Below, in pieces: positions 31,938 through 64,000 of a stretch of 64,000 nucleotides of DNA (its first letter is position 1; every line of letters begins with the position of its first letter). The notes under the pieces were generated by a model. It saw only the letters and a list, made by a program, of their open reading frames with translations. It did no database searches and was not told where the DNA came from. This DNA is from Lachnospiraceae bacterium (lineage in GTDB: Bacteria > Bacillota > Clostridia > Lachnospirales > Lachnospiraceae). The translations under genes were made by a program, and so were the position numbers. The stretch covers positions 1-64,000 of the forward strand of contig JAGASK010000001.1 in the NCBI GenBank assembly GCA_017621815.1, in the 5' to 3' direction.

Positions 31938-32135
31938 TTGAAAAAACCAACCTGTTATCTTTGGAAAAAAGATTTTCAAACAGAAGAGGAATTCGAAAAT
32001 GTCAAAAATACTTATTGGAATTCGGGCTTCAGAGTTGTTACTTTCTGCGACGGACCCGCAGGAAAAAATATTCACGGAGGCATTCGGGAAATAATTAAAA
32101 ATCACTGCAATGCCTGTCAGGAGGCGGAATTATGA
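31938..32135 (+). CDS. Small protein upstream of and overlapping the recombinase gene
   Basis: A 65-aa protein that I cannot assign to a family. It starts KKPTCYLWKKDFQTEEEFEN and continues NTYWNSGFRVVTFCDG, with a basic segment GGIREIIKNHCNA near the end. The likely start is TTG at 31938 with AAAGGAA upstream at a long spacing. Its stop overlaps the recombinase start (ATGA at 32132-32135), so the two are translationally coupled. Genes in this position next to large serine recombinases are sometimes recombination directionality factors; this is a positional inference only. Confidence 0.6.
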   Translation: MKKPTCYLWKKDFQTEEEFENVKNTYWNSGFRVVTFCDGPAGKNIHGGIREIIKNHCNACQEAEL

Positions 32136-34036: not shown

Positions 34037-34580
34037 ATATATCCTTAAGAAAAACAATATTGACCCGGCTTCAGACCTGGAAATTGACCAGAGCATCGAC
34101 TTCGGCTCAACCGCTGCTGCTTTTTCCGGCGGTCAGGGAGATTTTACAGTTGAATTCGAGCCCCATGCCACCTCCCTTGAAGCCAAAGGTGACGGCTATG
34201 TTGTAGCTTCCCTGGGTGAAGATTCCGGCTACGTTCCCTACACCGCTTTCAGTGCAAAAAAGAGCTATATAGAAGCCCATCCCGATGTCATCCAGTCCTT
34301 TACCAATGCGCTGCAAAAAGGTATGGATTATGTAAACAGCCATACGCCTGAAGAAATTGCAGAAGTAATTGCGCCGCAGTTTGAAGAAACGCCGGTGGAA
34401 ACAATCACCACTATTGTTACCAGATACTATGAGCAGGATACCTGGAAGAACAACCTTGTTTTTGAAGAAGATGCCTTCACCTTATTGCAGAATATTCTGG
34501 AAGAAGCAGGGGAACTTCCCGAAAGAGTTCCTTACGAAGAACTGGTTAACACTGAATTTGCCCAAAAAGCAATAAATTAA
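34008..34580 (+). pseudogene. C-terminal half of the split NMT1/THI5-type substrate-binding protein
   Basis: From the core onward the frame reads AGGMPEMVFEYILKKNNIDP, FSGGQGDFTVEFEPHATSLE and VIQSFTNALQKGMDYVNSHT, the second part of an NMT1/THI5-like binding protein. An in-frame ATG at 33999 could initiate a short product, but it has no signal peptide and is partly element sequence. It continues the N-terminal half at 20854 without loss of frame. A 42-nt 3'-UTR motif and a terminator follow. Confidence 0.92.
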
Positions 34581-50646: not shown

Positions 50647-52494
50647 ATGAAACAAAAAAGAGAAGATATAAGAAATATTGCAATTATTGCCCATGTCGAC
50701 CACGGCAAAACTACTCTGGTTGACGAATTATTGAAGCAAAGCGGCGTATTCCGCGAAAATCAGGATGTTGCAGAGCGTGTCATGGATTCCAATGACATTG
50801 AACGCGAGCGCGGAATTACGATTTTATCCAAGAATACCGCGGTAACTTACAAAAATACCAAAATCAATATTATTGACACTCCGGGACATGCTGATTTCGG
50901 CGGCGAAGTAGAACGTGTTCTTAAAATGGTAAACGGTGTCATTCTGGTGGTGGATGCCTTTGAAGGCGCCATGCCCCAGACAAAATTCGTACTGAGAAAA
51001 GCACTGGAATTAAAGCTTCCTGTCATCGTCTGCATTAATAAGATAGACAGGCCGGAAGCCCGTCCTTCGGAAGTTATCGACGAAGTTCTTGAACTTTTTA
51101 TTGAGCTGGACGCAAGCGAAGAACAGCTTGACTGTCCCTTTGTCTTCGCATCTGCCAAGACAGGCACCGCTTCCCTTGACATGGACACTCCCGGTGCTAA
51201 TATGATTCCTTTATTTGAAACAATCCTTGACTATATTCCCGCTCCCTGTGGCGACCCTGAAGCAGGTACCCAGGTATTAATCAGCACTATTGATTATAAC
51301 GAATATGTAGGACGAATCGGTGTGGGTAAAGTTGACAACGGCAGCGTTAAAGTCAATCAGGAGGTTGTCATTGTCAATCATCATGAGCCCGACAAAATGA
51401 AAAAAGTAAAGATCAGCAAGCTCTATGAATTTGACGGCTTAAATAAGGTGGAAGTAACTGAAGCAGGCATCGGTTCCATTGTTGCAATTTCCGGTATTTC
51501 CGATATCCATATCGGCGATACCTTATGTTCACCCGAAAACCCTGCCCCTATTCCTTTCCAGAAGATTTCGGAGCCTACCATTGCCATGCATTTTATTGTC
51601 AATGACTCCCCTCTTGCCGGACAGGAAGGAAAATATGTAACCAGCCGTCACTTGCGTGACCGCTTATTCCGTGAATTAAATACGGATGTTTCCCTTCGTG
51701 TGGAGGAAACCGATACCACAGAAGCCTTTAAGGTTTCAGGCCGCGGTGAACTTCATCTTTCTGTTTTAATAGAAAATATGCGCCGTGAAGGCTATGAATT
51801 TGCTGTCAGCAAGGCAGAAGTGCTTTATAAGACAGATGAAAACGGCAAAAAATTAGAGCCTATGGAGCTTTGCTATATTGATGTTCCCGAAGAGTTTTCC
51901 GGTTCCATTATCGAAAAGCTGAGCCAGCGTAAAGGAGAACTTCAAAGCATGGGAACCGCTTCCGGCGGCTATACCCGCCTTGAATTCTCCATTCCTTCAA
52001 GAGGCCTCATTGGATACCGGGGTGAATTCATGACCGATACCAAAGGAAACGGCATCATGAACAGCGTTTTTGACGGCTATGGTCCCTACAAGGGAGACAT
52101 CCAGTACCGCAAGCAGGGTTCCCTCATCGCTTTTGAAGCAGGGGAAGCCATTACCTATGGGCTTTATAACGCCCAGGAGCGGGGCACTCTCTTCATCAGC
52201 CCCGGCGAAAAGGTTTACTCCGGTATGGTTGTAGGACAGAACGGACGCGGCGAAGATATTGAGTTGAATGTCTGCAAAAAGAAGCAGCTGACAAATACAC
52301 GTTCTTCCAGCGCCGATGAAGCTTTGCGGCTGACGCCTCCTAAGATTTTAAGCCTGGAGCAGGCTCTTGATTTTATTGATACGGATGAACTTTTAGAGGT
52401 AACTCCCAAGTCACTGAGAATCAGAAAGAAAATTTTAGACCCTACCATGCGAAAAAGAGCTGCAATGAGAGCTGCATCCCTTGCACAGAATTAA
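50647..52494 (+). CDS. typA: Translational GTPase BipA/TypA
   Basis: A 615-aa ribosome-associated GTPase. G motifs are IAHVDHGKTTL (G1), RGITI (G2), DTPGHADFGGEV (G3), NKIDRPEARP (G4) and SAKTG (G5); the C-terminal domain has RGELHLSVLIENMRREGYE and PSRGLIGYRGEFMTDTKGNG, the BipA-specific segment. It helps ribosome assembly and growth under stress. The frame is open upstream to 49963, opposite the SSB-like gene, but ATG 50647 with GAGAGG is the real start. Confidence 0.97.
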   Translation: MKQKREDIRNIAIIAHVDHGKTTLVDELLKQSGVFRENQDVAERVMDSNDIERERGITILSKNTAVTYKNTKINIIDTPGHADFGGEVERVLKMVNGVILVVDAFEGAMPQTKFVLRKALELKLPVIVCINKIDRPEARPSEVIDEVLELFIELDASEEQLDCPFVFASAKTGTASLDMDTPGANMIPLFETILDYIPAPCGDPEAGTQVLISTIDYNEYVGRIGVGKVDNGSVKVNQEVVIVNHHEPDKMKKVKISKLYEFDGLNKVEVTEAGIGSIVAISGISDIHIGDTLCSPENPAPIPFQKISEPTIAMHFIVNDSPLAGQEGKYVTSRHLRDRLFRELNTDVSLRVEETDTTEAFKVSGRGELHLSVLIENMRREGYEFAVSKAEVLYKTDENGKKLEPMELCYIDVPEEFSGSIIEKLSQRKGELQSMGTASGGYTRLEFSIPSRGLIGYRGEFMTDTKGNGIMNSVFDGYGPYKGDIQYRKQGSLIAFEAGEAITYGLYNAQERGTLFISPGEKVYSGMVVGQNGRGEDIELNVCKKKQLTNTRSSSADEALRLTPPKILSLEQALDFIDTDELLEVTPKSLRIRKKILDPTMRKRAAMRAASLAQN

Positions 52495-52495
52495 A

Positions 52496-52537
52496 ACAAC
52501 GGGAAATGCACTTTGTGAGCTTTCTGTTGTCATAAAT
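52496..52537 (+). repeat. Recurrent 42-nt 3'-UTR motif, copy 4
   Basis: It begins 1 nt after the bipA stop codon and ends TTGTCATAAAT, aligning ungapped with 5701-5742 at 28/42 by eye. The sequence GAAATGCACTTTGTG...CTTTC can form a small stem-loop. The terminator follows 11 nt later. Confidence 0.6.
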
Positions 52538-52548
52538 TGTTAAACACG

Positions 52549-52577
52549 CAGCCGCCGGTTTCCGGCGGCTGTACTTT
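52549..52577 (+). terminator. Intrinsic terminator of bipA
   Basis: CAGCCGCCGG (52549-52558) and CCGGCGGCTG (52562-52571) form a 10-bp GC-rich stem with a 3-nt loop, followed by TACTTTT. Confidence 0.82.
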
Positions 52578-52596
52578 TAGGAATAAAATACTGTTT

Positions 52597-53673
52597 CTAA
52601 TACCTCCAGGCATTTTTACACATTTTATTGCTTTGATTAATCATCTGATTTACCCTTTCCCTCTGCTTTTTCCCTCCGCAATAATACAGAATTTCTTCCA
52701 CTGAAGGATTTTCCAGAGCATATGCAATTTCACTTTCCGGCACCGCAGCAATGAGTCTTATTTTCCTTAGATTCTTTAAATTTTTTACGGCTTTTATATT
52801 TTCAAACTGCCTGCACTCATCAATATCAATGCATTCTAATTTCGATTCTGTCGGAAATTCAGGAAGACCTTTTACGCAGGCCAGCTGCCATAAATGTATT
52901 TTTTTCAGATTCGGCAGCAACCCCAGAAAATCCACATTATCCAGTTTTGATATTCTCCACAGTTCAACATCTTCTATGGTCTCATGATTTTCCAGGGAAT
53001 CAAAGCAATTCATTTTCCCCCAGTGCACCGCCAGCCGTTCCAGGGGAATATCTTTCAAAAATTCAAGAGAAGTGCAGGTAATTCCCTGTAAGGTAAGTTT
53101 CCTAAGCGACTTTATTTCACATATTGTGGAAAGGTTTTTCTTTACTTTTCCCAAATATAACTCCGAAAGCTGCTTAAAAGGAATCAGCCATCCGCAGTCC
53201 ATATCAAAACTGCCCGCATTTCCTCCTGCCGATATTGCAAGCTTTTGTATATCCTTATTCAGGCTTCGTATCACTGCATATTCCTTTTGCCTGCTGATGT
53301 TCAGAAATAGACTTTTTAACTTGGACAAGCCCGACAGCACATCCAGATTTCTTACTTCGCTGACAGAAATTTCAAGCTTTGTTAAATCAGGCATATATAC
53401 CAAAAAGTCCAAATCACAAACTTCTCCATAGAAGCCATATATGCGGAAAGTAACGTCTTTCCGTACCGAAAAGAATCTGTCATTCAAAAGCTTAATAACC
53501 TCCAAAGGAAGATACTCAGATATTTGAATACAGAATAAGCCGGGTTCAGACAACATTTGTTCTATTACCTCATTGTCGATTCGGGCTGCATTCCATTCAG
53601 TTTGATTCGGAAAATTTCCTTTTGACTTATTATATATTTCAATCCTTCCATGAAAATTATACGGGCCGCTCAT
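52597..53673 (-). CDS. Leucine-rich repeat protein
   Basis: A 358-aa protein with about eight irregular leucine-rich repeats between residues 90 and 320 (for example MPDLTKLEISVSEVRNLDVL, LPNLKKIHLWQLACVKGLPE). No signal peptide or transmembrane helix, so it is probably cytoplasmic. Its start overlaps the end of the Rpn-type nuclease gene by 17 bp, so both are cotranscribed. Function unknown; LRR proteins usually bind other proteins. Confidence 0.72.
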   Translation of the reverse strand: MSGPYNFHGRIEIYNKSKGNFPNQTEWNAARIDNEVIEQMLSEPGLFCIQISEYLPLEVIKLLNDRFFSVRKDVTFRIYGFYGEVCDLDFLVYMPDLTKLEISVSEVRNLDVLSGLSKLKSLFLNISRQKEYAVIRSLNKDIQKLAISAGGNAGSFDMDCGWLIPFKQLSELYLGKVKKNLSTICEIKSLRKLTLQGITCTSLEFLKDIPLERLAVHWGKMNCFDSLENHETIEDVELWRISKLDNVDFLGLLPNLKKIHLWQLACVKGLPEFPTESKLECIDIDECRQFENIKAVKNLKNLRKIRLIAAVPESEIAYALENPSVEEILYYCGGKKQRERVNQMINQSNKMCKNAWRY

Positions 53674-54715
53674 TTTCGTTATCCTTACTTATTTTATTCA
53701 GGAGTTCATATACTCTGCTGCTGTTATAATCAGGGGCAGTTTTTAAAACAGCTTCATAGATTGCTGAAACAGAAGCAATATCTTCTTCCAATTCTTCCGC
53801 TATCACTTCCGGTTTTTTCCCTTTTTTTACCTTACGGCAAATAAGCTCTATCAATTTTAATTGTTCACCCTTCTGCATGCCCTTTTGTATACCCTTTTGT
53901 ATACCCTTTTGCATTCCGCGTTCTTCTATCGCATCACTTAAATTGCACATCCTGTTTACACCCTCCTTTACTTCCTCAGTGGCTGCTATTTCATATTTTT
54001 CTTCCAGTATCTGCAGCTTTTCCTCCGGTCTTAGTTTCTCCGAAAATATCGTGCCGAGAAATCCATGCAACGGAGTCTCCTCTCTTATGCAGCTGGCTTC
54101 ACTTAAACCTACCAATACTACCGAAAGTAAATCATATCTATGTCCTGATTCCGCTAAACCATAAAGCACTTCAGGTTTTATCCTGTATTCTACAATGGTG
54201 TCTGCTTCCTTTTTTGGAGAATTCAAACACAGCCATATAGAATAAACCTTTTTAATATCATCATAATTTTCTGCTGTAAATTCTGTATTTAATTGGGCTG
54301 ACAACATCCTTGCACAGTAAAAAACCGCTCTTGGCACTAAATCATATCCCGGATAATAATTCCTTTGAATTTCAATATTCAAAATCAATTTAAGACGCTC
54401 TCCTCCGGGCGTAATTACATAAAAACGAACATCATATGTAATCGTCCCCTCATTCGGCACATTATCCTGTGTCGGCATTCCCATGACAGCTTCCTTCTTT
54501 TTCCTGCCAGGATATACCGGAACAGCTGCTACTTCAATACCTTCAATAGCAGCTTCAATTTCCTTTAATGTACAGTCTGCCATTTCCCTGACCGTATATT
54601 TTATAATCCATGACAAAACTTTCTTATCTGACACAAGTTTTTTGGCTTCGCTGTCATATTGCGCCTTCATATCAGCAATTTCAATAGCATTTGCCAAGTA
54701 TGTTTTTTTCCTCAT
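53657..54715 (-). CDS. Rpn family PD-(D/E)XK nuclease / putative transposase
   Basis: A 352-aa protein of the group annotated as recombination-promoting nuclease or PD-(D/E)XK nuclease family transposase (PF12784). The nuclease core is at about 60-130 (DNVPNEGTITYDVRFYV...LKLILNIEIQRNY, where D...ExQ gives the catalytic residues). Near the C-terminus lies a QKG tandem repeat (MQKGIQKGIQKGMQKGEQ), written in DNA as 12-bp repeats at about 53875-53915. Rpn proteins move DNA in a RecA-independent way in E. coli; this one is not flanked by terminal repeats that I can see. GAGG precedes the ATG. Confidence 0.8.
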   Translation of the reverse strand: MRKKTYLANAIEIADMKAQYDSEAKKLVSDKKVLSWIIKYTVREMADCTLKEIEAAIEGIEVAAVPVYPGRKKKEAVMGMPTQDNVPNEGTITYDVRFYVITPGGERLKLILNIEIQRNYYPGYDLVPRAVFYCARMLSAQLNTEFTAENYDDIKKVYSIWLCLNSPKKEADTIVEYRIKPEVLYGLAESGHRYDLLSVVLVGLSEASCIREETPLHGFLGTIFSEKLRPEEKLQILEEKYEIAATEEVKEGVNRMCNLSDAIEERGMQKGIQKGIQKGMQKGEQLKLIELICRKVKKGKKPEVIAEELEEDIASVSAIYEAVLKTAPDYNSSRVYELLNKISKDNENERPV

Positions 54716-55009
54716 CCGTTCCTCACTTTCCCTGAACTACGCAGTAAGCTTCTGCAGCAGTGAGAAAAGGAAGTAATATCTTCAGTATAAAATGAACGCC
54801 TCTTTTTTACAACATAAATTCCCCACACTGCTGAATATTATTATTTGTCTTAAACTGAAAATTCTGGCGAGATGCCGTTCTGAAAATATTGATAATCCAA
54901 GAGTTGATACATCCTTGATATTCTTATCATATCATAGTGAAATATTATAAACAAATTAAAAATTTATAAAAACCTGCTGACTTTCATGTAAGGCCAACAG
55001 GTTTTTAGC
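54716..55009 (-). terminator. Intergenic space with terminator of the radical SAM operon
   Basis: This 294-bp AT-rich space holds no gene. At its left part is the likely promoter region of the Rpn gene. At 54968-55006 AAAAACCTG and CAGGTTTTT enclose further paired bases, giving an intrinsic terminator directly after the radical SAM stop codon. Confidence 0.8.
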
Positions 55010-56122
55010 TTAACTTGAGATTTTTGCCATTTCTTTATTTACAAAAACATGACGCATTTTTGCTACCTCACAATAGAAATTATCAATTCTCTCTTCATCA
55101 TTATATGCCTGCCCGAAATTAGCCGTGCATTGTTCACAAAACCTAATATCTTTGCATTGCATGCATGCAAAATTGTCGCTTGCTTTTTTATTTACAAATT
55201 CTTCTTGCAGGAATTTCCATCCTTCATCAAAAGTTCCCTTTCTCAAATCAAATTTCCTATAAGATGCTCTCACACATCCTTGTAAATAGTAATCAGAAGT
55301 AATAAATACATGCTGATTAGCAATAGAACAGGGATATAAGCATTTAGCTGCAAATCTTTTCCTTGTTCTATCGGGAATCAATTCTATTTCTCCTTCGACA
55401 AGCTGTCTTGCGACATCCTTCCAAAATGCATTTCTGCCTTTATCCTTAATATCAAATTCAAAAGCCTGTTCCGGAGTCAGTCTATGTACCATAGGTTCCA
55501 AAGTACCGTCACTCATTGGATGAATTCCTGTACTTATAATCATTTCCACTCCGAGTTTCCTCCCTATCTCCCTTGCTTGATAAATTTCATCATAATTTTC
55601 CTGCATGGCTACATACTTCAATTCATAACGCACGTTATTCTTATCCAATAATTCCAACGCTTTCATAAACTGTCCGTAACTTCCCTTAATTCCAGTCACT
55701 TTTTCATATGTTTTTTCCGTACATCCATACATAGTTGTACTAATCAATTCAACAGGATACTCCTTAAAAAGTTCAATATATTCCTGATTCAATAATGTAA
55801 TATTAGAAAGCAGCACTAATATTACGCCTTTTTTCTTTGCATACAAATAGAGTTCTTTAAAATCCGGTCTTGTAAAAATTTCTCCCCCTGTAAAATATGT
55901 TTCCAACATTCCTCTGTCGAGCAGTATATCAAATATTCTTTTAAATTCCTCTGTAGAGAAATCATTATGCTTTCTCCCATGGTTCGCATAACAATGAATA
56001 CAATTCAAATTACATTTAGCAGTCAATTCAAATCCCGCAGAAAACGGAGCAGAAATATCACCATAATTTTCATCAATAAAATCATTTATTTTTTCCGAAT
56101 GTATACAATATTGTTCTGCCAT
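55010..56122 (-). CDS. Radical SAM/SPASM protein, probable RiPP maturase
   Basis: A 370-aa enzyme. The radical SAM cluster motif is CNLNCIHC (Cys37, 41, 44), followed by YFTGGEIFTRPDF. The C-terminus has a SPASM domain with CLYPC...GC, then CMQCKDIRFCEQC (C-x2-C-x5-C-x2-C) and a final FYCEV, enough for two auxiliary Fe-S clusters. Enzymes of this layout cross-link peptides, for example by forming thioether bonds from cysteine. It is the last gene of the operon, 15 bp after the PqqD-like gene and downstream of a 38-aa cysteine-containing peptide, which is its likely substrate. Confidence 0.9.
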   Translation of the reverse strand: MAEQYCIHSEKINDFIDENYGDISAPFSAGFELTAKCNLNCIHCYANHGRKHNDFSTEEFKRIFDILLDRGMLETYFTGGEIFTRPDFKELYLYAKKKGVILVLLSNITLLNQEYIELFKEYPVELISTTMYGCTEKTYEKVTGIKGSYGQFMKALELLDKNNVRYELKYVAMQENYDEIYQAREIGRKLGVEMIISTGIHPMSDGTLEPMVHRLTPEQAFEFDIKDKGRNAFWKDVARQLVEGEIELIPDRTRKRFAAKCLYPCSIANQHVFITSDYYLQGCVRASYRKFDLRKGTFDEGWKFLQEEFVNKKASDNFACMQCKDIRFCEQCTANFGQAYNDEERIDNFYCEVAKMRHVFVNKEMAKISS

Positions 56123-56137
56123 TTTTTAGTTCCTTTC

Positions 56138-56404
56138 CTATTCAATAACTAATTTCAACTCAATTAATTGGTTAATAAATTCTGCTACCGCCATCGCTTC
56201 TTCAGAATTATCACTTAATTCATATTTTTTACATATTTCTGACTGTAATTGCTGTCTGTTAATATTATCCTCAACTAAGTCCCATATAACACCAGCAACC
56301 TCATTAAGTACAATTGGCACATCTCCAATCTCATTTTTACATATTGGCATTAAAATATTTTTTCCATATATTTTTCTTAAAATAAATGCGTCTGTCTTCT
56401 TCAT
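56138..56404 (-). CDS. PqqD family peptide-binding (RRE) protein
   Basis: An 88-aa protein of the PqqD/RiPP recognition element type. The pattern starts KTDAFILRKIYGKNILMPIC and continues PIVLNEVAGVIWDLVEDNIN, IEL at the end; NE(V/T)AxxIW is the usual PqqD signature. It would bind the leader of the precursor peptide and deliver it to the radical SAM enzyme. GGAAGGAT precedes ATG 56404; the ATG at 56428 lies upstream of that site. The precursor gene is 73 bp upstream. Confidence 0.85.
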   Translation of the reverse strand: MKKTDAFILRKIYGKNILMPICKNEIGDVPIVLNEVAGVIWDLVEDNINRQQLQSEICKKYELSDNSEEAMAVAEFINQLIELKLVIE

Positions 56405-56424
56405 AACATTATCCTTCCTAATAA

Positions 56425-56464
56425 ACAAATGTCCTTTCTGTTATTAAAACCAGAAAAGACATTT
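56425..56464 (-). promoter_or_regulatory. Stem-loop between precursor peptide and maturation genes
   Basis: CAAATGTCCTTTCTG (56425-56439) pairs with CAGAAAAGACATTTG (56450-56464), 15 bp with one G-T wobble and a 10-nt loop. It has no strong T-run after it. In RiPP operons such a hairpin often stabilises the precursor mRNA or partly terminates, so that more peptide than enzyme is made; that role is inferred. Confidence 0.7.
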
Positions 56465-56477
56465 GCATCCTCACTCT

Positions 56478-56594
56478 TTACTTACCTTCATAACAGCAAG
56501 CTTTAAAAGTACAATGATACGGATTTTCCGGACCATAAGCTGTTTCCCTGTCGGAACGCTGTAAGATAATTAATTTAGGCACTTCAAACTTCAT
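56478..56594 (-). CDS. Putative RiPP precursor peptide, 38 aa
   Basis: A short gene with a very strong site (GGAGGTG at 56601-56607, 6 nt before ATG 56594). The product begins MKFEVPKLIILQRSD, an amphipathic leader-like segment, and ends PYHCTFKACCYEGK with all three cysteines (28, 33, 34) near the C-terminus. No signal peptide. It lies immediately before PqqD-like and radical SAM/SPASM genes, the standard arrangement for a ribosomally made, enzymatically cross-linked peptide. The MKFExPK start is reminiscent of leaders of clostridial radical SAM peptides, but I could not search for relatives. Confidence 0.78.
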   Translation of the reverse strand: MKFEVPKLIILQRSDRETAYGPENPYHCTFKACCYEGK

Positions 56595-56637
56595 TCATAT
56601 CACCTCCTCGTTTCAAATGTTCAAAATATTCTTCAAT

Positions 56638-57318
56638 TCAGCTCTTACCATTTCTTTTTTCTGAAAAATCACTCCCTCTCCTTTCTATCATTTCTTCCCA
56701 CCTGCGATATCCGCTTCTGCTTTCTAATGGATATCTTTTCAAAATTTCCCACCCTTCCCTTTCATACCAGTTCGCCGGAAGAATGACCTGTATCGACATG
56801 CCGTTTAAAATATCGCCTTGGTTCCATTTCTGCAACAACAGTTCTTGCCCGCCAGTGGTCTTAGGCGCCACATACCCCACCTGTAAAATTTCTCCTTTTG
56901 GAACTTTAATTTCTTCAACTACTTCCATTCTGTTTCCAAACGGATACGCTAATGCCAGATCTGTTTTTGCGCTTAATTTATCAAACGGAAGATTCGGCGA
57001 GGCAAATTTTCCTTTACGCAATTTGCCATTTTGATCTCTGACTTCTTTTTTCGAACATACTCTGTATAATTTTAAATCAGTTTTTGTTTTTACGGTCAGA
57101 TACTCCTGATTATAAAAAGAAAGTTTATCCTGTTTGCCCAGCTTCTCCTGTGGGCAGACGATACACTTTGCCAAAAAAGAATCTTTCCTTATATCTTTTT
57201 TGAACAGTGATTCTTTGCTGGTATTCTTCCCATATTCCTTTAATAAACTTACATCTGTTTCCTCTATTTTCTTCTCAATGCACTTTTCCTCAATATCCTT
57301 ACACATAATAATAACCAT
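56638..57318 (-). CDS. Unknown protein, possibly ADP-ribosyltransferase-like
   Basis: A 226-aa protein that I cannot assign with confidence. Residues 1-70 are charged and carry four or five cysteines (KCIVCPQEK). The middle reads LKLYRVCSKKEV, FASPNLPFDKLSAKTDLALA, VPKGEILQVGYVAP and GGQELLL in that order. An arginine strand, a serine strand and a late glutamate in this order resemble R-S-E ADP-ribosyltransferase folds or related toxin domains, but the match is weak. It sits between the J-like/TPR gene (12 bp) and the precursor peptide (43 bp), so it belongs to the operon. Start M1 at 57318 has a poor site. Confidence 0.6.
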   Translation of the reverse strand: MVIIMCKDIEEKCIEKKIEETDVSLLKEYGKNTSKESLFKKDIRKDSFLAKCIVCPQEKLGKQDKLSFYNQEYLTVKTKTDLKLYRVCSKKEVRDQNGKLRKGKFASPNLPFDKLSAKTDLALAYPFGNRMEVVEEIKVPKGEILQVGYVAPKTTGGQELLLQKWNQGDILNGMSIQVILPANWYEREGWEILKRYPLESRSGYRRWEEMIERRGSDFSEKRNGKS

Positions 57319-57330
57319 GCTGCACTTTCA

Positions 57331-58602
57331 TCAGACTCTAACCAGCTCTCTTATGAACAGCACAAACAGTTTAATGCATGTCCATAACAGCCATAACGCT
57401 TTTTTTACTAAAAAGGTATAAATATTTCCTATGGTTATTACCGTTGTCTCAAATGCGCCTGCATTTCCGGTCAGATATATTCTGTTTAGCTGCCAATATG
57501 GACGGAAACTTACCACTGTTAATAAAGTTGGCATTGCCAATAAGAAAACACCTAATAATATTACTATAATTCCAGCCATCATGTTATCCATATTTCCTAT
57601 ATCCGTTGCTGCTCTTCCACCATAAATTATAAATTCAAAGCCAAAACATATGCCCACTATCCACATCCATATTAAATTCTTCAGGTTATCCTTATTAAAT
57701 TTACGCTGTCCGTAAAATTTTGCATCATCCAGCATTTTCTTTGTATACTCATCCCTGTATATTTCACAGGCTTTATTTCTTAATTTTAAAATTCTGCTGT
57801 ATCCCTGCTTATCTGCAATAATTGCAACTCCATCCTTCGGATCTGTAACATAACTTGATTTAGAGAAGTTAATGATATTATAAGCGCTCTCCTTTCTAAA
57901 AGCATCCGCATCCGGATGTTTCGCTATATATTGGTCAATCTCATTAAATGCCAAATCTTCTTTTCCCGCATGCATATACAAAAATATCTGTTCCGAATGT
58001 GCCGTCTCATTATCAGGATTCCGTTCCAGCAGTTCATTTATTTTTTCCTGAGCCGCTTCATAATTATGTAATCCTACGATATTTAATCTTGCTGAAAGCC
58101 AGATAAAATAGTCCTTGTTGACAACACTGCCGACTGCTTTATTGAGCAGTTTAAACGCACTATCATACTGCTCCATTGCTGCGTAACTGCGAATAGCCAT
58201 ATCATATGCTTCTTCACCCGTCGGATTATTTTCAATTGCTTCAACAGCATATTCTACTGCCTGTTTAAACCTGCCTCGTCTGAACATCTGCTCAGCCTGT
58301 TCCAGAAGATCCTTAGCTTTGCTTACATCTTCTGTACTTACTTTACCCTCTGCATATGCCTTTTCAAGGTCTGCGTCATACTGCTGCCGAAGGTTTTTTT
58401 TCGTCAGGAAGTGAATCGCATCCCCTATTTTATTTATGATCTCTTCCAATATTGACAGTTCTTCCTTATCATTTGTCGCACTTTGACGCCTGAGGTGTAT
58501 TTGCTGTAATTTAACTAACTGCTGTTTAATACTTTTTTCATCTAATGTTCTGTCAATATTAAATTCTTTATAATAATCTATCATTGGTACATTTTTTGCC
58601 AT
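57331..58602 (-). CDS. Degenerate J-domain / TPR membrane protein
   Basis: A 423-aa protein. Residues about 8-78 resemble a J domain (YYKEFNIDRTLDEKSIKQQL ... KKNLRQQYDADLE), but the HPD tripeptide that stimulates Hsp70 is missing. TPR-like helices follow (about 90-250, e.g. AEQMFRRGRFKQAVEYAVEA). The C-terminus has hydrophobic segments at about 310-330, 343-368 and 395-420, so it is membrane-bound. It lies 10 bp after the Hsp70 gene and is its likely partner. GAGGAT precedes the ATG. Confidence 0.75.
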   Translation of the reverse strand: MAKNVPMIDYYKEFNIDRTLDEKSIKQQLVKLQQIHLRRQSATNDKEELSILEEIINKIGDAIHFLTKKNLRQQYDADLEKAYAEGKVSTEDVSKAKDLLEQAEQMFRRGRFKQAVEYAVEAIENNPTGEEAYDMAIRSYAAMEQYDSAFKLLNKAVGSVVNKDYFIWLSARLNIVGLHNYEAAQEKINELLERNPDNETAHSEQIFLYMHAGKEDLAFNEIDQYIAKHPDADAFRKESAYNIINFSKSSYVTDPKDGVAIIADKQGYSRILKLRNKACEIYRDEYTKKMLDDAKFYGQRKFNKDNLKNLIWMWIVGICFGFEFIIYGGRAATDIGNMDNMMAGIIVILLGVFLLAMPTLLTVVSFRPYWQLNRIYLTGNAGAFETTVITIGNIYTFLVKKALWLLWTCIKLFVLFIRELVRV

Positions 58603-58612
58603 TTTAATATCC

Positions 58613-60175
58613 TCACTCTCCGCTTATATTCAGGCTTTCCAGCTTTTCAGTATTTTCTTTCACTTCTTCTTCCGTCAGATTTGCAATTCTGTCAATTTTC
58701 ATTTCGCCCAAATCTTCATTGTCCTGTAAGTCTGTTACCCTGACATGTATAATAGAATCACTGTCACAGCCTATACTTACACGTATCCTTACCTGCCCTG
58801 GTTTAGGTTTTATTTTAAGTTCTGAAGTTCCTATCACTGTGACATATCGAATGTCTTCCTCTTCGCCCTGCGTAACTTCAATTAACAAATGCGCCTGATA
58901 ATCCTCCAGCGTAACAAATTCTTCATATCCCTCACTGGGTATTTTTGAATTTTTGGGTAATATCACAGTATTTACTTTTTCATTATATTCATTAATACTG
59001 ATGATTCCTATGCCATGAGCTGTTACATCCTGAAACTGATATTGGTTTTTAGAATCAGGCAGACTGTTTAATATTGCTTCTTTCATTTCTGCAGGCTCTT
59101 CACACGCTCTATTTTTTGCCATTTCCAAAGCATGATAGGCAGCCCCGATTGCAACAGCTTCATCGGGATGGACTTCTGATGATGGTTTTATTCCAGTCTC
59201 TTCCTCAATCATTTCACGGACATAGGGAATTCTTGTTGAACCTCCAACCAGCAGAATCTTATCAATTTCCGAATATTCAAGTCCTGCCTCTTCCATGGCA
59301 TTTTCCATGACACTGATAGTCCGGGTAAGAAGATTTTCTATCATTTCATTAAATTCTTCCCGCGTTATAACTATTTTCAATGGTTTTCCCTGTACATTAA
59401 TTACGATACTTGTCTTTATTTTGTCCTTTGCGGACAAAGCACATTTTGCCTGCTCAGCTTTTATTTGCAAATCCTGCATTGCATAAACATCCTTTGTTAT
59501 ATCAATTCCTTGTTCCGCAGCCTTTTCTTTTACATAATCAATTATTTTATTGTCAAAATCATATCCGCCCAGCGCCCTGTTTCCTTCTCCTGCCAGAGAA
59601 ATAATTTCTTTATCCGTAAACCGCATAATGCAAACGTCAAAAGTTCCTCCTCCAAGGTCATAAATTAAAACAGTCTGCTGCTCCTGCTTTCCCTTCGAGA
59701 TTCCAAAAGCAAGCGCTGCTGCTGTTGGCTCATTAATTATTGACAAGACATTCATTTTTGCCATTGCCGCCGCATCCATTGTTGCTTTTCGTTGCGCATC
59801 GTTAAAATATGCGGGAACCGTAATTACAGCTCCTGAAATTTCTTCTCCGAGATATGCTTCTGCATCAGATTTCAATTTTTTTAATATAATGGCTGAAATT
59901 TCTTCAGGGGAATATTTTGTTCCCTCTGCTGTGGTAAACCAGTAATCCCTTTCTCCCATATGCCTTTTGACAAAGGCTTCATAATTTTCTGGATTTGAAA
60001 AACCTTCCTCTTTAGCTGTTTCGCCTACTATAATTGCATTTTCTTCAAATAATACAGTTGAGGGCGTGGTATTTTTCCCATTATCATTTGGAATAATCTG
60101 AGGCAGACCATCTTCATTAATAAATGCTGCCACAGAATATGTCGTTCCCAAATCAATTCCTACATATTTTCCCAT
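58613..60175 (-). CDS. Hsp70 family chaperone (DnaK-like, short)
   Basis: A 520-aa Hsp70. Nucleotide-binding motifs are GIDLGTTYS (6-14), DLGGGTFD (173-180) and GGSTRIP (311-317); a beta-sandwich-like substrate domain follows (about 395-495). The alpha-helical lid of DnaK (normally to about 610-640 aa) is almost absent. It is not next to grpE, dnaJ or hrcA, so it is a specialised paralogue working with its operon partners. GGAGG precedes the ATG, 12 bp after the Big2 protein gene. Confidence 0.93.
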   Translation of the reverse strand: MGKYVGIDLGTTYSVAAFINEDGLPQIIPNDNGKNTTPSTVLFEENAIIVGETAKEEGFSNPENYEAFVKRHMGERDYWFTTAEGTKYSPEEISAIILKKLKSDAEAYLGEEISGAVITVPAYFNDAQRKATMDAAAMAKMNVLSIINEPTAAALAFGISKGKQEQQTVLIYDLGGGTFDVCIMRFTDKEIISLAGEGNRALGGYDFDNKIIDYVKEKAAEQGIDITKDVYAMQDLQIKAEQAKCALSAKDKIKTSIVINVQGKPLKIVITREEFNEMIENLLTRTISVMENAMEEAGLEYSEIDKILLVGGSTRIPYVREMIEEETGIKPSSEVHPDEAVAIGAAYHALEMAKNRACEEPAEMKEAILNSLPDSKNQYQFQDVTAHGIGIISINEYNEKVNTVILPKNSKIPSEGYEEFVTLEDYQAHLLIEVTQGEEEDIRYVTVIGTSELKIKPKPGQVRIRVSIGCDSDSIIHVRVTDLQDNEDLGEMKIDRIANLTEEEVKENTEKLESLNISGE

Positions 60176-60187
60176 GTAAAACCTCCA

Positions 60188-61672
60188 TTATTTTCTTCTG
60201 AATAATTTTATCTTTCTTTTTGCCACCTTTACCTCAATCACTTGCTTCAATGACGTAAGCTGACTTTCCAATATCACTTCCGTCTGCCCCACCTCCTTCG
60301 CCTGTAAGCGATTCCCAATCACATTACATACCATAATATTCTTACTGCTGATTTTTATATTTTTATCCAATGCATCATTGGGAACCAACGTATACTCAAG
60401 TGCCTTTTCTTCTCCCGGATACATTTCCAACTGTGAGTTTACAACGTTTATATCTTTCAAATATTCTTTTACTTCTACCAGCAATGATGCGGAAACATTA
60501 CCTATACAGCACCAGACTTTTGCTCTCCCCACGCTTCTAGCCGCAATTTCCCTTTTATGGCAGGCTACAATATTTTCATTTTCACTTTTCCACTTTTCTT
60601 CGTGAAGATTATCCGCATTGTCTGGAAATACCGTGACATTAATCCGCTTTTTATCCCCTATCCCCATAACCACTGCTGTTTCAATAATAGTTATTTGAGA
60701 AACATAATTATATTTTTTTACTTTAAACTCAATTTTCTTAAATATTTCATTTCTTCCTGCATAATGAATATACAAATCCGCTTTCCCTTCATTAAGCCCC
60801 TCCACTGTTAAACCGTTGCATTTTATTATTCCGGGCTTATCATAAGAGAATGAAAATAAGGAACATGAAACTTTTTCTCCATTCTGCCAAAATTCAATAT
60901 TTTTACTTCGATGCAATTCAATTTGGGTATCACACCTTACTTCCACTTCTTTCTCAATAGCCAGAAGCTCTTTCTTTTCATTTTCACTGATAATCCCGTT
61001 AGAAAAACATATCTTTGCATTTTCAATCAAGGCCTGTAAACAAACATCTGAAAGAATACATCGAAAAAGAGCATCTAATAATTTTTCTTTCCGGACAAAA
61101 AAAATAATCGAATTATCCCGTACCTCAGTTTTGGTTTCCTCAGATATACAAAAGCAATATTTTGCCTGTTTCTTTTTAATTCTATCTGTGCTGTCCGAAA
61201 TATAAATACGTGGTTTCACATCACATTCCTGCATCACTATGCTGCAAAAACGATTTTTTATATCCAATGTTTTTAACATATTTTTTTCTCTGGCGCTATC
61301 TGCGTCAAATGTTAATAAATAAGTACGGCATTCATAATTTGCTCTCCGGTTCTTTAACAATAAATTTAATTTCTGCATTCGCAGCTGTATTGACAAATCA
61401 TTACTGTATTTACCTTCATGAAATGAACTGCACCAACGGCATTTTCCCGCCAGGTCTTTCAAGACTGCTATCCTGATAGAATCCGCAGTAAAACAAAGAC
61501 AGAAAAAATCTTCTATTTCATTGAAAACAGCATCACATATTTTGTCATACCATACCTCAAACGGCTGCATTGTATATTTAATCAGAGAACTATATTGCGA
61601 TATTTCTTTTCCATCAATTAATATACTTGATGAAGAATCGAAAATATTATATAAAATATCCACCTTTTTCAT
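60188..61672 (-). CDS. Unknown protein with C-terminal bacterial Ig-like (Big2) domains
   Basis: A 494-aa protein. The N-terminal half (about 1-250) is cysteine-rich and has no family that I recognise (DIKNRFCSIVMQECDVKPRI is typical of it). From about 255 there are three Big2-like repeats; the clearest are AVVMGIGDKKRINVTVFPDN ... ENENIVACHKREIAARSVGRA and LEMYPGEEKALEYTLVPNDA ... NRLQAKEVGQTEV. Big2 domains are usually outside the cell, yet there is no signal peptide or transmembrane helix. AGGAG precedes the ATG. It is 20 bp after the disordered protein gene. Confidence 0.7.
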   Translation of the reverse strand: MKKVDILYNIFDSSSSILIDGKEISQYSSLIKYTMQPFEVWYDKICDAVFNEIEDFFCLCFTADSIRIAVLKDLAGKCRWCSSFHEGKYSNDLSIQLRMQKLNLLLKNRRANYECRTYLLTFDADSAREKNMLKTLDIKNRFCSIVMQECDVKPRIYISDSTDRIKKKQAKYCFCISEETKTEVRDNSIIFFVRKEKLLDALFRCILSDVCLQALIENAKICFSNGIISENEKKELLAIEKEVEVRCDTQIELHRSKNIEFWQNGEKVSCSLFSFSYDKPGIIKCNGLTVEGLNEGKADLYIHYAGRNEIFKKIEFKVKKYNYVSQITIIETAVVMGIGDKKRINVTVFPDNADNLHEEKWKSENENIVACHKREIAARSVGRAKVWCCIGNVSASLLVEVKEYLKDINVVNSQLEMYPGEEKALEYTLVPNDALDKNIKISSKNIMVCNVIGNRLQAKEVGQTEVILESQLTSLKQVIEVKVAKRKIKLFRRK

Positions 61673-61692
61673 AGTCAGACTCCTGATAACCT

Positions 61693-61929
61693 CTACCTGT
61701 CATTCCCAATCTCACGTTCTCTTTCCTGTTGTCCTTTATCAGAAGAATCGGCATTATCTTTTTTTTCACTGTTTTCATTTTCTTCCTTTACTTCCGGCTT
61801 TTGCAGGTCTGCTTTGAGTGAATCTCTGAATTCTTTACTCCTTTCTTTTTCACCTTTTAAATTATTATCCTCTTTTACCTCATTTCCAGTTTCCTTTACA
61901 TCGCTTTTTTCAAAATGTCCCCATTTCAT
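61693..61929 (-). CDS. Small highly charged, probably disordered protein
   Basis: A 78-aa protein made almost only of Lys, Glu, Asp, Asn and Ser after the start MKWGHFEKSDVKETGN, with no hydrophobic core. It overlaps the end of the HerA-like gene by 20 bp in another frame and has GGGAGG 9 nt before its ATG, so it is likely translated. No family recognised; it may be a flexible linker or partner in the operon's complex. Confidence 0.6.
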   Translation of the reverse strand: MKWGHFEKSDVKETGNEVKEDNNLKGEKERSKEFRDSLKADLQKPEVKEENENSEKKDNADSSDKGQQEREREIGNDR

Positions 61930-64000
61930 CTTCGTTTTCCTCCCAGCATAAAATTATCTGATAAATGGTCGCAAAAATATTCCTGTCATCATATCCGCCA
62001 TTGCCTGTGGTTTTTAATAAACTTTTCAATATTTTATTTTTATCCTCTAAATTGTCTATGTTTAAATAATAGTCAAAAACAACATAAAAATCAGAAATCC
62101 ATTTTTTAACCCAAAACTGTAATTGTTCCGCCAGCCTTCGTTTATCATTTTCTGACAATGTCATTCTTTGAGAAACATATTCACGCATAGTCAGAATATT
62201 GTCCTTGGGTATAACCTCAAATACTGCCCGGCACTCTGAAAGATTTAAAATTAATTCTCCTGCCGCTTCTTTGATATTTGTCTTAGAATCATTCATATAC
62301 ATATCCAATACTTCTATTAATTCCCGCTTTTTCTCATCCCAAAGTGCTGATCGGTTAATAATTTGCCGAAATCTCATTGGCTGTACAGAATCATGTTCCA
62401 ACTGCCGATATAATTCAATGACTAATGATGTTCTTACCTCTTTCAACAACATATCCTGTGAAACCTGAATTTCTGCTTCATACTTATTTTCCCAATAATC
62501 TACCTTCATAAGAACCGGCTGGAGCCATCCCTTTTGCATTATGGCTGCCACTCCAACATTCAACCGCGATAACTCCATTGTCTGCTTTTCATTCAACGCT
62601 AATGCACTTCCCATTTCCTTACTTGCATCCTTACTTGGTATATTCAATACCATTTTTGTAGATGTATTTTCTATAACAGATTCATCTACAGCCATGGGAG
62701 ACTGATCTATAATAATAAATCCTTCTCCATACGTTCTCATTTCTTTTATAGAGTTGCTAATCATTTCCACAGATTGCCCTACCATATTGGAGCTGTCCTG
62801 AGATTGTTCTTTAGGAACTCTTTTTAATAAATTATGCGCTTCTTCCAATACAGTCACATGTGAAAGAGATTCATCATGAATTTTTCCACCCTGCGATTTT
62901 CTTACCGACTTTCTATATTCTCCAAGTTGCATAATTAACATACCCATAATTAATGCACGCGTTTCATCGGAACCCACATCACTTAAATCAATTATGGCAT
63001 TAGAATCAAACATCATTTTATAAGATATTCCAAATTCTCTCTCAAAAATCAGGCCATTAATTCCTGTTGTCATAGCCTGTACTCTGGTTACCAATGCTCC
63101 CTTATAGTCTCCTTTTGAATCTGCTGAAAATTCTGAACGATTTATAATTTTAGGCAACTCTTCCAAAACATCTGTAAATGTCGGATATTTCTTTTTTGAT
63201 AATTCCTTAATCCATACAGAATGGTTTAAATCCCATCCACATTTCACATATGCATTTACTACCGCTTCTTTCAAGATCGCCGGCATTGCGGCGTATAATG
63301 GCCATGAAGCATTAAAAATCTGTAAAAGTTGATCAACATGCGACAAAACATGAATATTATCAGGAAATTGAAATGGATTTATTCGTAAAAGCCTGTATAA
63401 TTGGGGATCTGTTGTGTAAATTTTTATTCCCCTAAGTCCGCCAAATACCTGCTTATATTCTCCCTTCGCAGGCTCAATAACCATCATCTTAATATTCTGT
63501 TCCAACAAAGAATTTAGTAATTTATACGTTGCGTATGATTTTCCCGAACCTGATGAGCCTGTAATAAAGCAATGTGATGATAAAAGGTTTATATCTATGG
63601 GAACCTCATTTTTTTCCACGTTTCCCATATGATAAATATGTCCAAAGCTTATCGGTTTTTCAGGAATTTTGTTTTCATATACTACACTTCTGCCAAACTC
63701 AGCCATATCCACTACTGCCACGCCCGACACCGACTTTCTTGGTAATCCTAAAATAACCGGCAATTCAGCTCCGCTAATTAAATTAGTCGGTGTAACCGAT
63801 TGAAACGGAATATTGTTATCAATCTTAATTTCTGCAACAGGATGTTTCATATATTCCACAGACAGTAAAATTTTTTGAATTTCTTTTTCTCTTTCATTGT
63901 TCCAAATGCTCAAGTGTGAACTTTCCACATTAGAATCTTCTCCTGACATAAGTGCTTTAAAAGAATTGGCTGCCAGAGCTGTTACTGCAATATCTTCCGC
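61910..64000 (-). CDS. HerA/FtsK-like P-loop ATPase (DUF87), N-terminus outside the window
   Basis: A HerA-type ATPase of at least 696 aa. The frame stays open to the right edge: the codons before the first Met (63949) read EDIAVTALAANSFKAL, so the gene is partial. Walker A is GSSGSGKS (131-138 counted from that Met), followed by MMVIEPAKGEYKQVFGG; Walker B is HVTVLEEAHNLL, and MRTYGEGFIIIDQSPMAVDE is the sensor/arginine region of HerA-VirB4 proteins. These ATPases pump DNA or proteins and occur in repair and defence complexes. It heads the visible part of the operon; genes may lie upstream beyond 64000. Confidence 0.87.
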   Translation of the reverse strand, partial: AEDIAVTALAANSFKALMSGEDSNVESSHLSIWNNEREKEIQKILLSVEYMKHPVAEIKIDNNIPFQSVTPTNLISGAELPVILGLPRKSVSGVAVVDMAEFGRSVVYENKIPEKPISFGHIYHMGNVEKNEVPIDINLLSSHCFITGSSGSGKSYATYKLLNSLLEQNIKMMVIEPAKGEYKQVFGGLRGIKIYTTDPQLYRLLRINPFQFPDNIHVLSHVDQLLQIFNASWPLYAAMPAILKEAVVNAYVKCGWDLNHSVWIKELSKKKYPTFTDVLEELPKIINRSEFSADSKGDYKGALVTRVQAMTTGINGLIFEREFGISYKMMFDSNAIIDLSDVGSDETRALIMGMLIMQLGEYRKSVRKSQGGKIHDESLSHVTVLEEAHNLLKRVPKEQSQDSSNMVGQSVEMISNSIKEMRTYGEGFIIIDQSPMAVDESVIENTSTKMVLNIPSKDASKEMGSALALNEKQTMELSRLNVGVAAIMQKGWLQPVLMKVDYWENKYEAEIQVSQDMLLKEVRTSLVIELYRQLEHDSVQPMRFRQIINRSALWDEKKRELIEVLDMYMNDSKTNIKEAAGELILNLSECRAVFEVIPKDNILTMREYVSQRMTLSENDKRRLAEQLQFWVKKWISDFYVVFDYYLNIDNLEDKNKILKSLLKTTGNGGYDDRNIFATIYQIILCWEENEDEMGTF

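Follow-up and report, generated by a model that had tools for sequence, protein, structure and literature searches.

We examined an operon of nine genes from a Lachnospiraceae bacterium (assembly GCA_017621815.1), encoded on the minus strand of what we call the window, that is, the whole 64,000-nucleotide stretch analysed (positions 1-64000 of the 73,398-bp contig JAGASK010000001.1; Table 1). Six of the genes encode a HerA-type motor ATPase, a 78-aa leader-like protein, an NPY-Big2 protein, an Hsp70, a J-like/TPR protein and a toxin-like protein that we call ART-like (after ADP-ribosyltransferase). We consider it somewhat likely, with a probability of about 55%, that this core is a polymorphic-toxin operon organised around the HerA motor, an Hsp70-using variant of a HerA-motor polymorphic-toxin system, and that the three remaining genes, for a candidate ribosomally synthesised and post-translationally modified peptide (RiPP), are an adjacent unit. 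The evidence that carries this reading is the conserved gene order, a HerA clade, homology of the putative warhead to an RHS-repeat protein, statistics on the gene slot after HerA in relatives, and a shared NPY domain. From these observations we infer export, the work of HerA as a pump, the role of the chaperones, and the direction and target of the toxin.

HerA relatives and their toxin genes

The HerA family to which the window protein belongs marks toxin operons. Searches of family and class genomes supplied 35 HerA loci, 32 of which have a same-strand gene no more than 250 bp downstream of HerA. In 17 of these 32 loci this slot gene matches a toxin family at E ≤ 1e-3. The matches are spread over seven families: NS_2 nuclease (5), WHH/colicin DNase (5), GH-E (2), LHH (2), ADPrib_exo_Tox (1), papain-fold Gln_amidase (1) and TNT (1). 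The scan was counted by family, and single-protein scans, clusters and cluster profiles indicate that the matches represent 17 distinct proteins. As a control, the 29 genes directly upstream of HerA matched 32 families, with Dynamin_N in nine members and no toxin family among the 25 of these 32 that were listed. The difference between 17 of 32 downstream and 0 of 29 upstream (Fisher p 1e-6) is softened by several points: the L048 TNT-like gene counted among the 17 lies below the Pfam cut-off (E 8e-5); L044 and L045 are near-copies; the remaining seven upstream families are weak, single-member matches; and we classed as non-toxin the upstream families peptidase M48 (two members), NLPC_P60 (one) and Amidase_5 (one).

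The second gene downstream of HerA (n = 28) matches SUKH_6 in four loci, DUF6985 in three, SUFU in two and YezG-like families in two, and a cognate immunity gene stands adjacent to the toxin in many of these relatives. A preliminary description of this DNA, made from the sequence alone, had offered an effector system as one possible role. That suggestion is right in kind.

In the GTPase arm of the HerA family, an N-terminal leader ([YF][KR]xIxP followed by FW or FL) is found ahead of differing warheads: NS_2 in L014, WHH-type in L020 and L043, and, in two genes of L040, a nuclease-like domain (by reading; NS_2 E 0.019) and a metallopeptidase-like domain (DUF6782 E 4e-7). The pattern was later found again before a metallopeptidase-like protein in L069. 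Two versions of the pattern match 5 and 6 of 595 proteins, each with one outside match, inside a HerA; these counts weigh less in that the patterns were devised after the sequences had been seen.

Phylogenetic reconstruction used 31 HerA rows, comprising the 20 strongest of the 35 loci, the window protein, five IMG/VR rows and five plasmid rows; we excluded the short L071, the 15 weaker loci, and L070, which nearly duplicates L069. All five Hsp70-type HerAs group in a single clade (100/100 support), within an arm that also holds Big2-only loci and the long-branched L049. The arm with dynamin and NPY proteins is separate, again at 100/100. One member of the Big2 arm, L011 (G092:C416, 2-13999), is a HerA operon flanked by a TIR-domain protein on one side and Cas10/RAMP genes on the other; two M48 peptidase-like membrane proteins are encoded ahead of its HerA. 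At L022 (G015:C41, 14019-18637), an Hsp70-LRR repeat fusion and an Hsp70-Sel1 repeat fusion occur near a distant HerA.

HerA relatives were present in 19 of 200 family genomes at E ≤ 1e-10, and a HerA profile matched 15 of 391 class genomes at E ≤ 1e-70, the window's own genome being included in both counts. A search of genome contigs returned one 3.2-kb contig from a metagenome-assembled Bacillota genome, identical over HerA residues 1-902. In addition, tblastn with HerA matched 39 of 72,556 plasmid records at E ≤ 1e-30, 2 of 50,697 phage records at E ≤ 1e-20, and seven IMG/VR loci. Plasmid loci of Escherichia coli TW10590 and Treponema saccharophilum read dynamin, dynamin, hypothetical, HerA, HNH and SMI1/KNR4. 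Lactococcus cremoris pB26B has two hypothetical genes, HerA, HNH and then an unnamed gene. An Exiguobacterium acetylicum plasmid has an NPY protein (by reading; annotated as hypothetical) followed by HerA, HNH and SMI1/KNR4, and a Ruminococcus albus plasmid carries HerA between a similar NPY protein and an unnamed gene. In all five plasmid records examined, HerA is annotated only as an ATP-binding or DUF87 protein. The records examined span three phyla (Bacillota, Spirochaetota and Pseudomonadota), and the TW10590 locus occurs at near identity in 1 of 5,426 E. coli genomes.

A conserved core with its own chaperones

The order HerA, leader-like or disordered protein, Big2, Hsp70 and J/TPR recurs in L048 and in three IMG/VR contigs (L065-L067, with HerAs 52-53% identical to that of the window). 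A more distant version, L052, has a more distant HerA, an Hsp70 that is 52% identical, a J/TPR protein that is 20% identical, and no Big2 match. The recurrence bears out the earlier proposal where it grouped HerA and the Big2 protein with the chaperone pair. The loci vary around this framework. In L048 a TNT-like gene stands after HerA and precedes the disordered-protein gene, and in L065 and L066 a small extra gene separates Hsp70 and J/TPR. After J/TPR, each of L065, L066 and L067 has a gene read as a toxin, in L067 behind a zinc-ribbon-like gene; L048 has a zinc-ribbon gene in the same slot. Two of the genes after J/TPR in L065-L067 were searched against the PDB, with no match backing the toxin label.

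The 78-aa protein matches its L065 counterpart at E 5e-5 (7e-4 in another comparison), and its N-terminus resembles the leader of the proteins in the same slot of L065-L068. This leader pattern, likewise devised after the sequences had been seen, is present in 13 of 763 proteins, three of them unrelated, and the window's own ART-like protein is without it. In L068 the N-terminal leader region is also seen joined to a warhead. Family scans with the 78-aa protein gave nothing above chance.

By hhalign, the first 82 residues of the Big2 proteins correspond to the domain at the N-terminus of the dynamin-arm proteins (probability 98.5, E 3e-15), and therefore one adaptor domain, NPY, links both HerA arms. 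A second Hsp70 of 630 aa is encoded on contig C27 of the same genome, which makes the operon Hsp70 an extra copy. For the J-like/TPR protein, the TPR structure is supported by the family match and by a fold search that returned TPR proteins. That search did not prove a J domain, which is weakly suggested by the sequence match and the helix pattern. The HPD motif is absent from the first 100 residues of this protein and from five aligned homologues, and a J-like protein without it would not provide the canonical stimulation of Hsp70.

Of the gene labels in the preliminary description, HerA, Hsp70, TPR, PqqD and radical SAM were upheld by family scans. Big2 fell under the family cut-off (Pfam Big_2 E 0.002), DnaJ reached E 0.043 in a protein with no HPD motif, and ART is unproven.

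Relatives of the J/TPR protein were sparse. Only the window's own genome carried a match among 37 of its genus, and the order of G749 yielded 1 in 16 genomes. Across 321 class genomes a J/TPR profile found the window's own genome and two others, G441 and G657. In G441 an Hsp70 is present with no HerA within the 17.3-kb stretch, and in G657 there is no core gene within 20 kb. The G441 locus (L078, G441:C85, 2017-10470) is an operon in which a 911-aa protein and small helical-looking proteins accompany an Hsp70 and a J/TPR-like protein. The pair may serve systems besides those with HerA. Scans of viral contigs with the J/TPR and radical SAM proteins returned no relatives.

A putative exchangeable warhead

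The ART-like protein shares a domain with the C-terminus of a 421-aa RHS-repeat protein (L063; pairwise E 1e-15), which is followed by small genes. Among 391 class genomes this RHS domain is the sole match besides the window's own at E ≤ 1e-3. The same domain is thus carried both on a free-standing 226-aa protein and on an RHS-repeat protein, as expected of an exchangeable warhead. Three plasmids carry relatives of the RHS domain (29-31% identical); the ART-like protein itself, as query, had no plasmid match. Because the RHS C-terminal domain matches it and has plasmid relatives, the ART-like protein is most simply a warhead.

The ART fold is a presumption that searches did not confirm: the protein had no family match above chance, a PDB sequence search gave nothing at E ≤ 10, and a two-sequence profile gave one chance match (E 0.49). 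A TNT identity was considered and dropped as unproven (E 0.44 against the L048 TNT-like protein). Comparison with the L066 protein after J/TPR gave E 0.061 (0.3 in another comparison).

Proposed mechanism

In a polymorphic-toxin operon of this kind, the ART-like gene would be the interchangeable warhead. The lidless Hsp70 and the J-like TPR membrane protein would hold the toxin soluble or unfolded and carry it to the membrane. The NPY-Big2 protein would attach the HerA ring either to the envelope or to a partner, like the dynamin GTPases in the sister arm, and the ATP-driven HerA ring would then move or release the toxin toward a rival cell. We tentatively extend this to a broader proposal, in which we have distinctly less confidence, that the loci represent an undescribed delivery machine. 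A HerA ring and an NPY adaptor, with a dynamin arm and an Hsp70/J-TPR arm, would export leader-tagged polymorphic toxins in at least three phyla, partly from plasmids. In the window, a peptide made by the radical SAM enzyme might act as a second payload or in self-protection.

Several observations weigh against the polymorphic-toxin reading. The Hsp70 version is rare, with J/TPR matches in 4 of 397 family genomes at E ≤ 1e-4, comprising the window's own and three weak ones (E 2e-6 to 5e-5). Simple hydropathy identified no signal peptide or wall anchor in the operon. PDB relatives of HerA carry the names HerA, helicase or ATP-binding protein, and several of them we take to be antiphage complexes. 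The predicted structure of the ART-like protein has a mean pLDDT (predicted local distance difference test) of 38.8, which leaves its fold unproven. Finally, we identified no immunity gene behind the ART-like gene, and none of the three small genes that follow the RHS gene of genome G452 is clearly matched on the window's contig (best E 0.03).

Alternative explanations and the adjacent RiPP genes

The HerA protein itself would suit another role, intracellular defence. HerA would sense or translocate foreign DNA and release or activate a toxin-like effector, the infected cell would be killed or arrested, and the small partners would be antitoxins. This is the most serious alternative, and we regard it as unlikely. 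HerA matches the PADLOC HerA and mad8 models (best E 3.5e-21), and its score with the NCBIfam antiphage HerA model (NF042943) is 40.4 bits against a cut-off of 800. Its solved relatives are HerA-type ATPases, L011 lies beside TIR and Cas10/RAMP genes, no signal peptides were seen, and the radical SAM protein has weak matches to viperin models (E 4e-14). A 2026 paper counts the dynamins LeoABC among phage-defence systems (PMC13335696). However, PADLOC models found no match at E ≤ 0.1 for the Big2, Hsp70, J/TPR or ART-like proteins, and common N-terminal leaders with swapped warheads fit trafficking.

The peptide, PqqD-like and radical SAM genes probably form an adjacent RiPP unit whose connection to the core is uncertain. 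They combine a CxxxCxxC radical SAM protein and a RiPP recognition element (RRE) protein beside a short open reading frame (ORF), as radical SAM/PqqD clusters do. The radical SAM protein lies under the cut-off of all 25 models listed. The peptide had no family match in scans. A leader protease or exporter was absent from the nine genes by family scan; the next two ORFs past the terminator were covered by reading.

The preliminary description had joined these three genes to the core as one system. In such a system the modified 38-aa peptide would work within the HerA-chaperone unit as a signal, a toxin or an immunity factor. Relatives do not favour this view, and we now think it improbable. No radical SAM, PqqD or peptide match (ORFs of at least 20 aa, E ≤ 1) was found in the five other core loci (L048, L052 and L065-L067), of which L048, L052 and L065 are informative, as the L066 and L067 contigs end 1.4-1.9 kb after J/TPR. 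Radical SAM relatives occur in 4 of 200 genomes of the family at E ≤ 1e-30 and, within the genus, in 2 of 37 at E ≤ 1e-15, the window's own included both times, and the fetched stretches around them have no HerA or Hsp70: L058 has PqqD and radical SAM, L057 radical SAM and a small gene read as PqqD, and L056 radical SAM alone. L061, from the same genus, holds a similar trio: a PqqD gene (Pfam E 9e-6), a radical SAM gene split over two ORFs, and a Cys peptide of 41 aa. The 12 kb covered there contain no match to HerA or Hsp70. The L061 cluster (G213:C110, 2536-4121) is perhaps decaying. On these few loci, the two sets of genes are regularly apart, the outcome that the preliminary description had named as refuting a joint system.

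Some features of the locus nevertheless suit a single nine-gene system and count against a clean split. The halves are 43 bp apart, with no terminator or promoter found between them and no excess of promoter-like sequences, both are AT-rich relative to the contig, and there is otherwise no immunity gene behind the toxin. Moreover, L050 (G626:C87, 5419-10656) is the sole locus among the 35 with a radical SAM gene seen close downstream of HerA (three genes). There the genes behind a distant HerA encode, in order, a 106-aa protein, a metallopeptidase-like protein (by reading), a radical SAM protein of 475 aa and a protease-RHS-like protein. L050 has no PqqD match, however, and no small Cys peptide ORF in the gaps inspected.

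Big2 domains are common in surface proteins, and the Big2 homologues of L011, L012 and L047 end in hydrophobic segments (by reading), so that the Hsp70 and HerA might assemble the Big2 protein on the cell surface, as was first suggested; yet we judge this very improbable, since the only hydrophobic window in the operon's Big2 protein is a marginal one at residue 198, with both ends lacking any, and its N-terminal NPY domain, also carried by GTPases, fits an adaptor. Taken as a whole, the interpretation in the preliminary description is partly supported.

Locus layout and signals

The nine ORFs are tightly packed, as first described, with spacings from HerA to the radical SAM gene of -20, 20, 12, 10, 12, 43, 73 and 15 bp. 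Following the sequence beyond position 64000, as had been recommended, completes the operon: a divergent helix-turn-helix gene lies ahead of the full-length HerA ORF on the contig, and HerA is therefore the first gene of the unit. HerA has a Walker A motif (GSSGSGKS, residues 540-547), a Ser-rich insert at about residues 240-350 and a single DUF87 domain (Pfam DUF87/HerA E 1e-13), with no hydrophobic segment by simple hydropathy. The GC content of the operon genes is 0.29-0.38, against 0.425 for the remaining contig.

The hairpin after the radical SAM gene, originally named as the only intrinsic terminator, is real, and between the peptide gene and pqqD lies another strong hairpin, which had been overlooked. 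The latter is a possible attenuator, perhaps setting the level of precursor over enzyme. The consensus scan for signals had a loop limit of 8, so neither hairpin was listed by it; the same scan found 37 promoter-like sequences against 38.7 expected. An Rfam search of 52000-64000 gave no matches. Elsewhere in the window (32132-34580), a recombinase-like ORF abuts a substrate-binding-protein-like fragment (names by reading), as if a mobile element had inserted.

Table 1. Features of the operon, with coordinates given as positions in the window.
Feature	Position	Strand	Description
HerA/DUF87 motor ATPase	61910..64000	-	C-terminal 696 codons and stop inside the window; ORF runs to contig position 65176, 1088 aa in all
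78-aa disordered charged protein	61693..61929	-	directly after HerA; N-terminus MKWGHFEKSD resembles leader MxxGNFxE
NPY-Big2 adaptor-like protein	60188..61672	-	N-terminal domain of ~82 residues, then Big2-like repeats
Hsp70, 520 aa	58613..60175	-	ATPase and substrate domain; from its length, without C-terminal lid; Pfam E 1e-125
J-like/TPR protein	57331..58602	-	three hydrophobic segments near C-terminus; TPR family match; DnaJ E 0.043
Toxin-like (ART-like) protein, 226 aa	56638..57318	-	residues 65-184 35% identical to C-terminal domain of RHS-repeat protein (L063)
38-aa peptide ORF	56478..56594	-	two Cys; strong Shine-Dalgarno; candidate RiPP precursor
Second strong hairpin	56425..56466	-	between 38-aa peptide gene and pqqD; 16-bp stem, -21.6 kcal/mol, z -4.4
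PqqD-like (RRE) protein	56138..56404	-	88 aa from ATG; TTG start at 56428 also possible; Pfam PqqD E 2e-6
Radical SAM protein	55010..56122	-	CNLNCIHC at residue 37; Pfam E 3e-21; further C-terminal cysteines, SPASM-like by reading
Terminator-type hairpin	54967..55007	-	after radical SAM gene; 15-bp outer stem, -18.6 kcal/mol, z -3.0

Relation to described systems

The nearest published descriptions, as far as the available parts of the two papers go, are polymorphic toxin systems (PMC3482391) and GAP1-N2 GTPase-centric conflict systems with HSP70 and DnaJ/TPR partners (PMC7159879). Polymorphic toxin systems likewise combine interchangeable WHH, LHH, GH-E and ART warheads with SUKH/SuFu immunity, and the window's own warhead is common to an RHS-repeat protein; here, in contrast, the toxin's neighbours are a single-motor HerA, NPY proteins, and Hsp70 or dynamins. 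In the portion available of PMC3482391, HerA is mentioned three times, always for YueA-like ATPases of the type VII secretion system. The GAP1-N2 systems share a private Hsp70, a DnaJ- or TPR-bearing partner and beta-sandwich repeats, whereas the window operon centres on HerA and has no GTPase gene and no GrpE among its nine genes. Membership was rejected, with no GTPase family match among ten proteins scanned, a scan in which no GAP1 model was sought separately.

Antiphage HerA systems (NF042943, PADLOC HerA and MADS mad8) have the same DUF87 motor, and differ in the low NF042943 score given above and in that the partners of the HerA relatives described here are toxin and immunity genes. Type VII secretion (EssC/YueA, with WXG/LXG cargo) also sets a pump of the FtsK-HerA superfamily beside toxins. 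The one DUF87 domain, the lack of hydrophobic segments in HerA and the absence of a WXG/LXG family match in the operon, to which this search was confined within the genome, led us to reject membership there too. LeoABC bacterial dynamins (PMC4159319) resemble the sister arm in their tandem dynamin GTPases; in the text of that paper, the words 'HerA', 'ATPase' and 'endonuclease' are absent. Radical SAM/PqqD RiPP clusters share the radical SAM enzyme, the RRE protein and a small Cys peptide, and differ in that no protease or exporter is found among the nine genes.

HerA toxin-immunity operons were undescribed among the matches listed in a search of open PMC papers by title and start of abstract, a scope that lies outside subscription papers and preprints and so does not show absence in print.

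Implications

If our reading is correct, HerA would mark a toxin-delivery or toxin-control system in Clostridia, Bacilli, one spirochaete and one E. coli plasmid, using chaperones in one arm and dynamins in the other. It would give a testable job to bacterial tandem dynamins and to private Hsp70s, and antibacterial warfare in gut communities would become more predictable from genomes.

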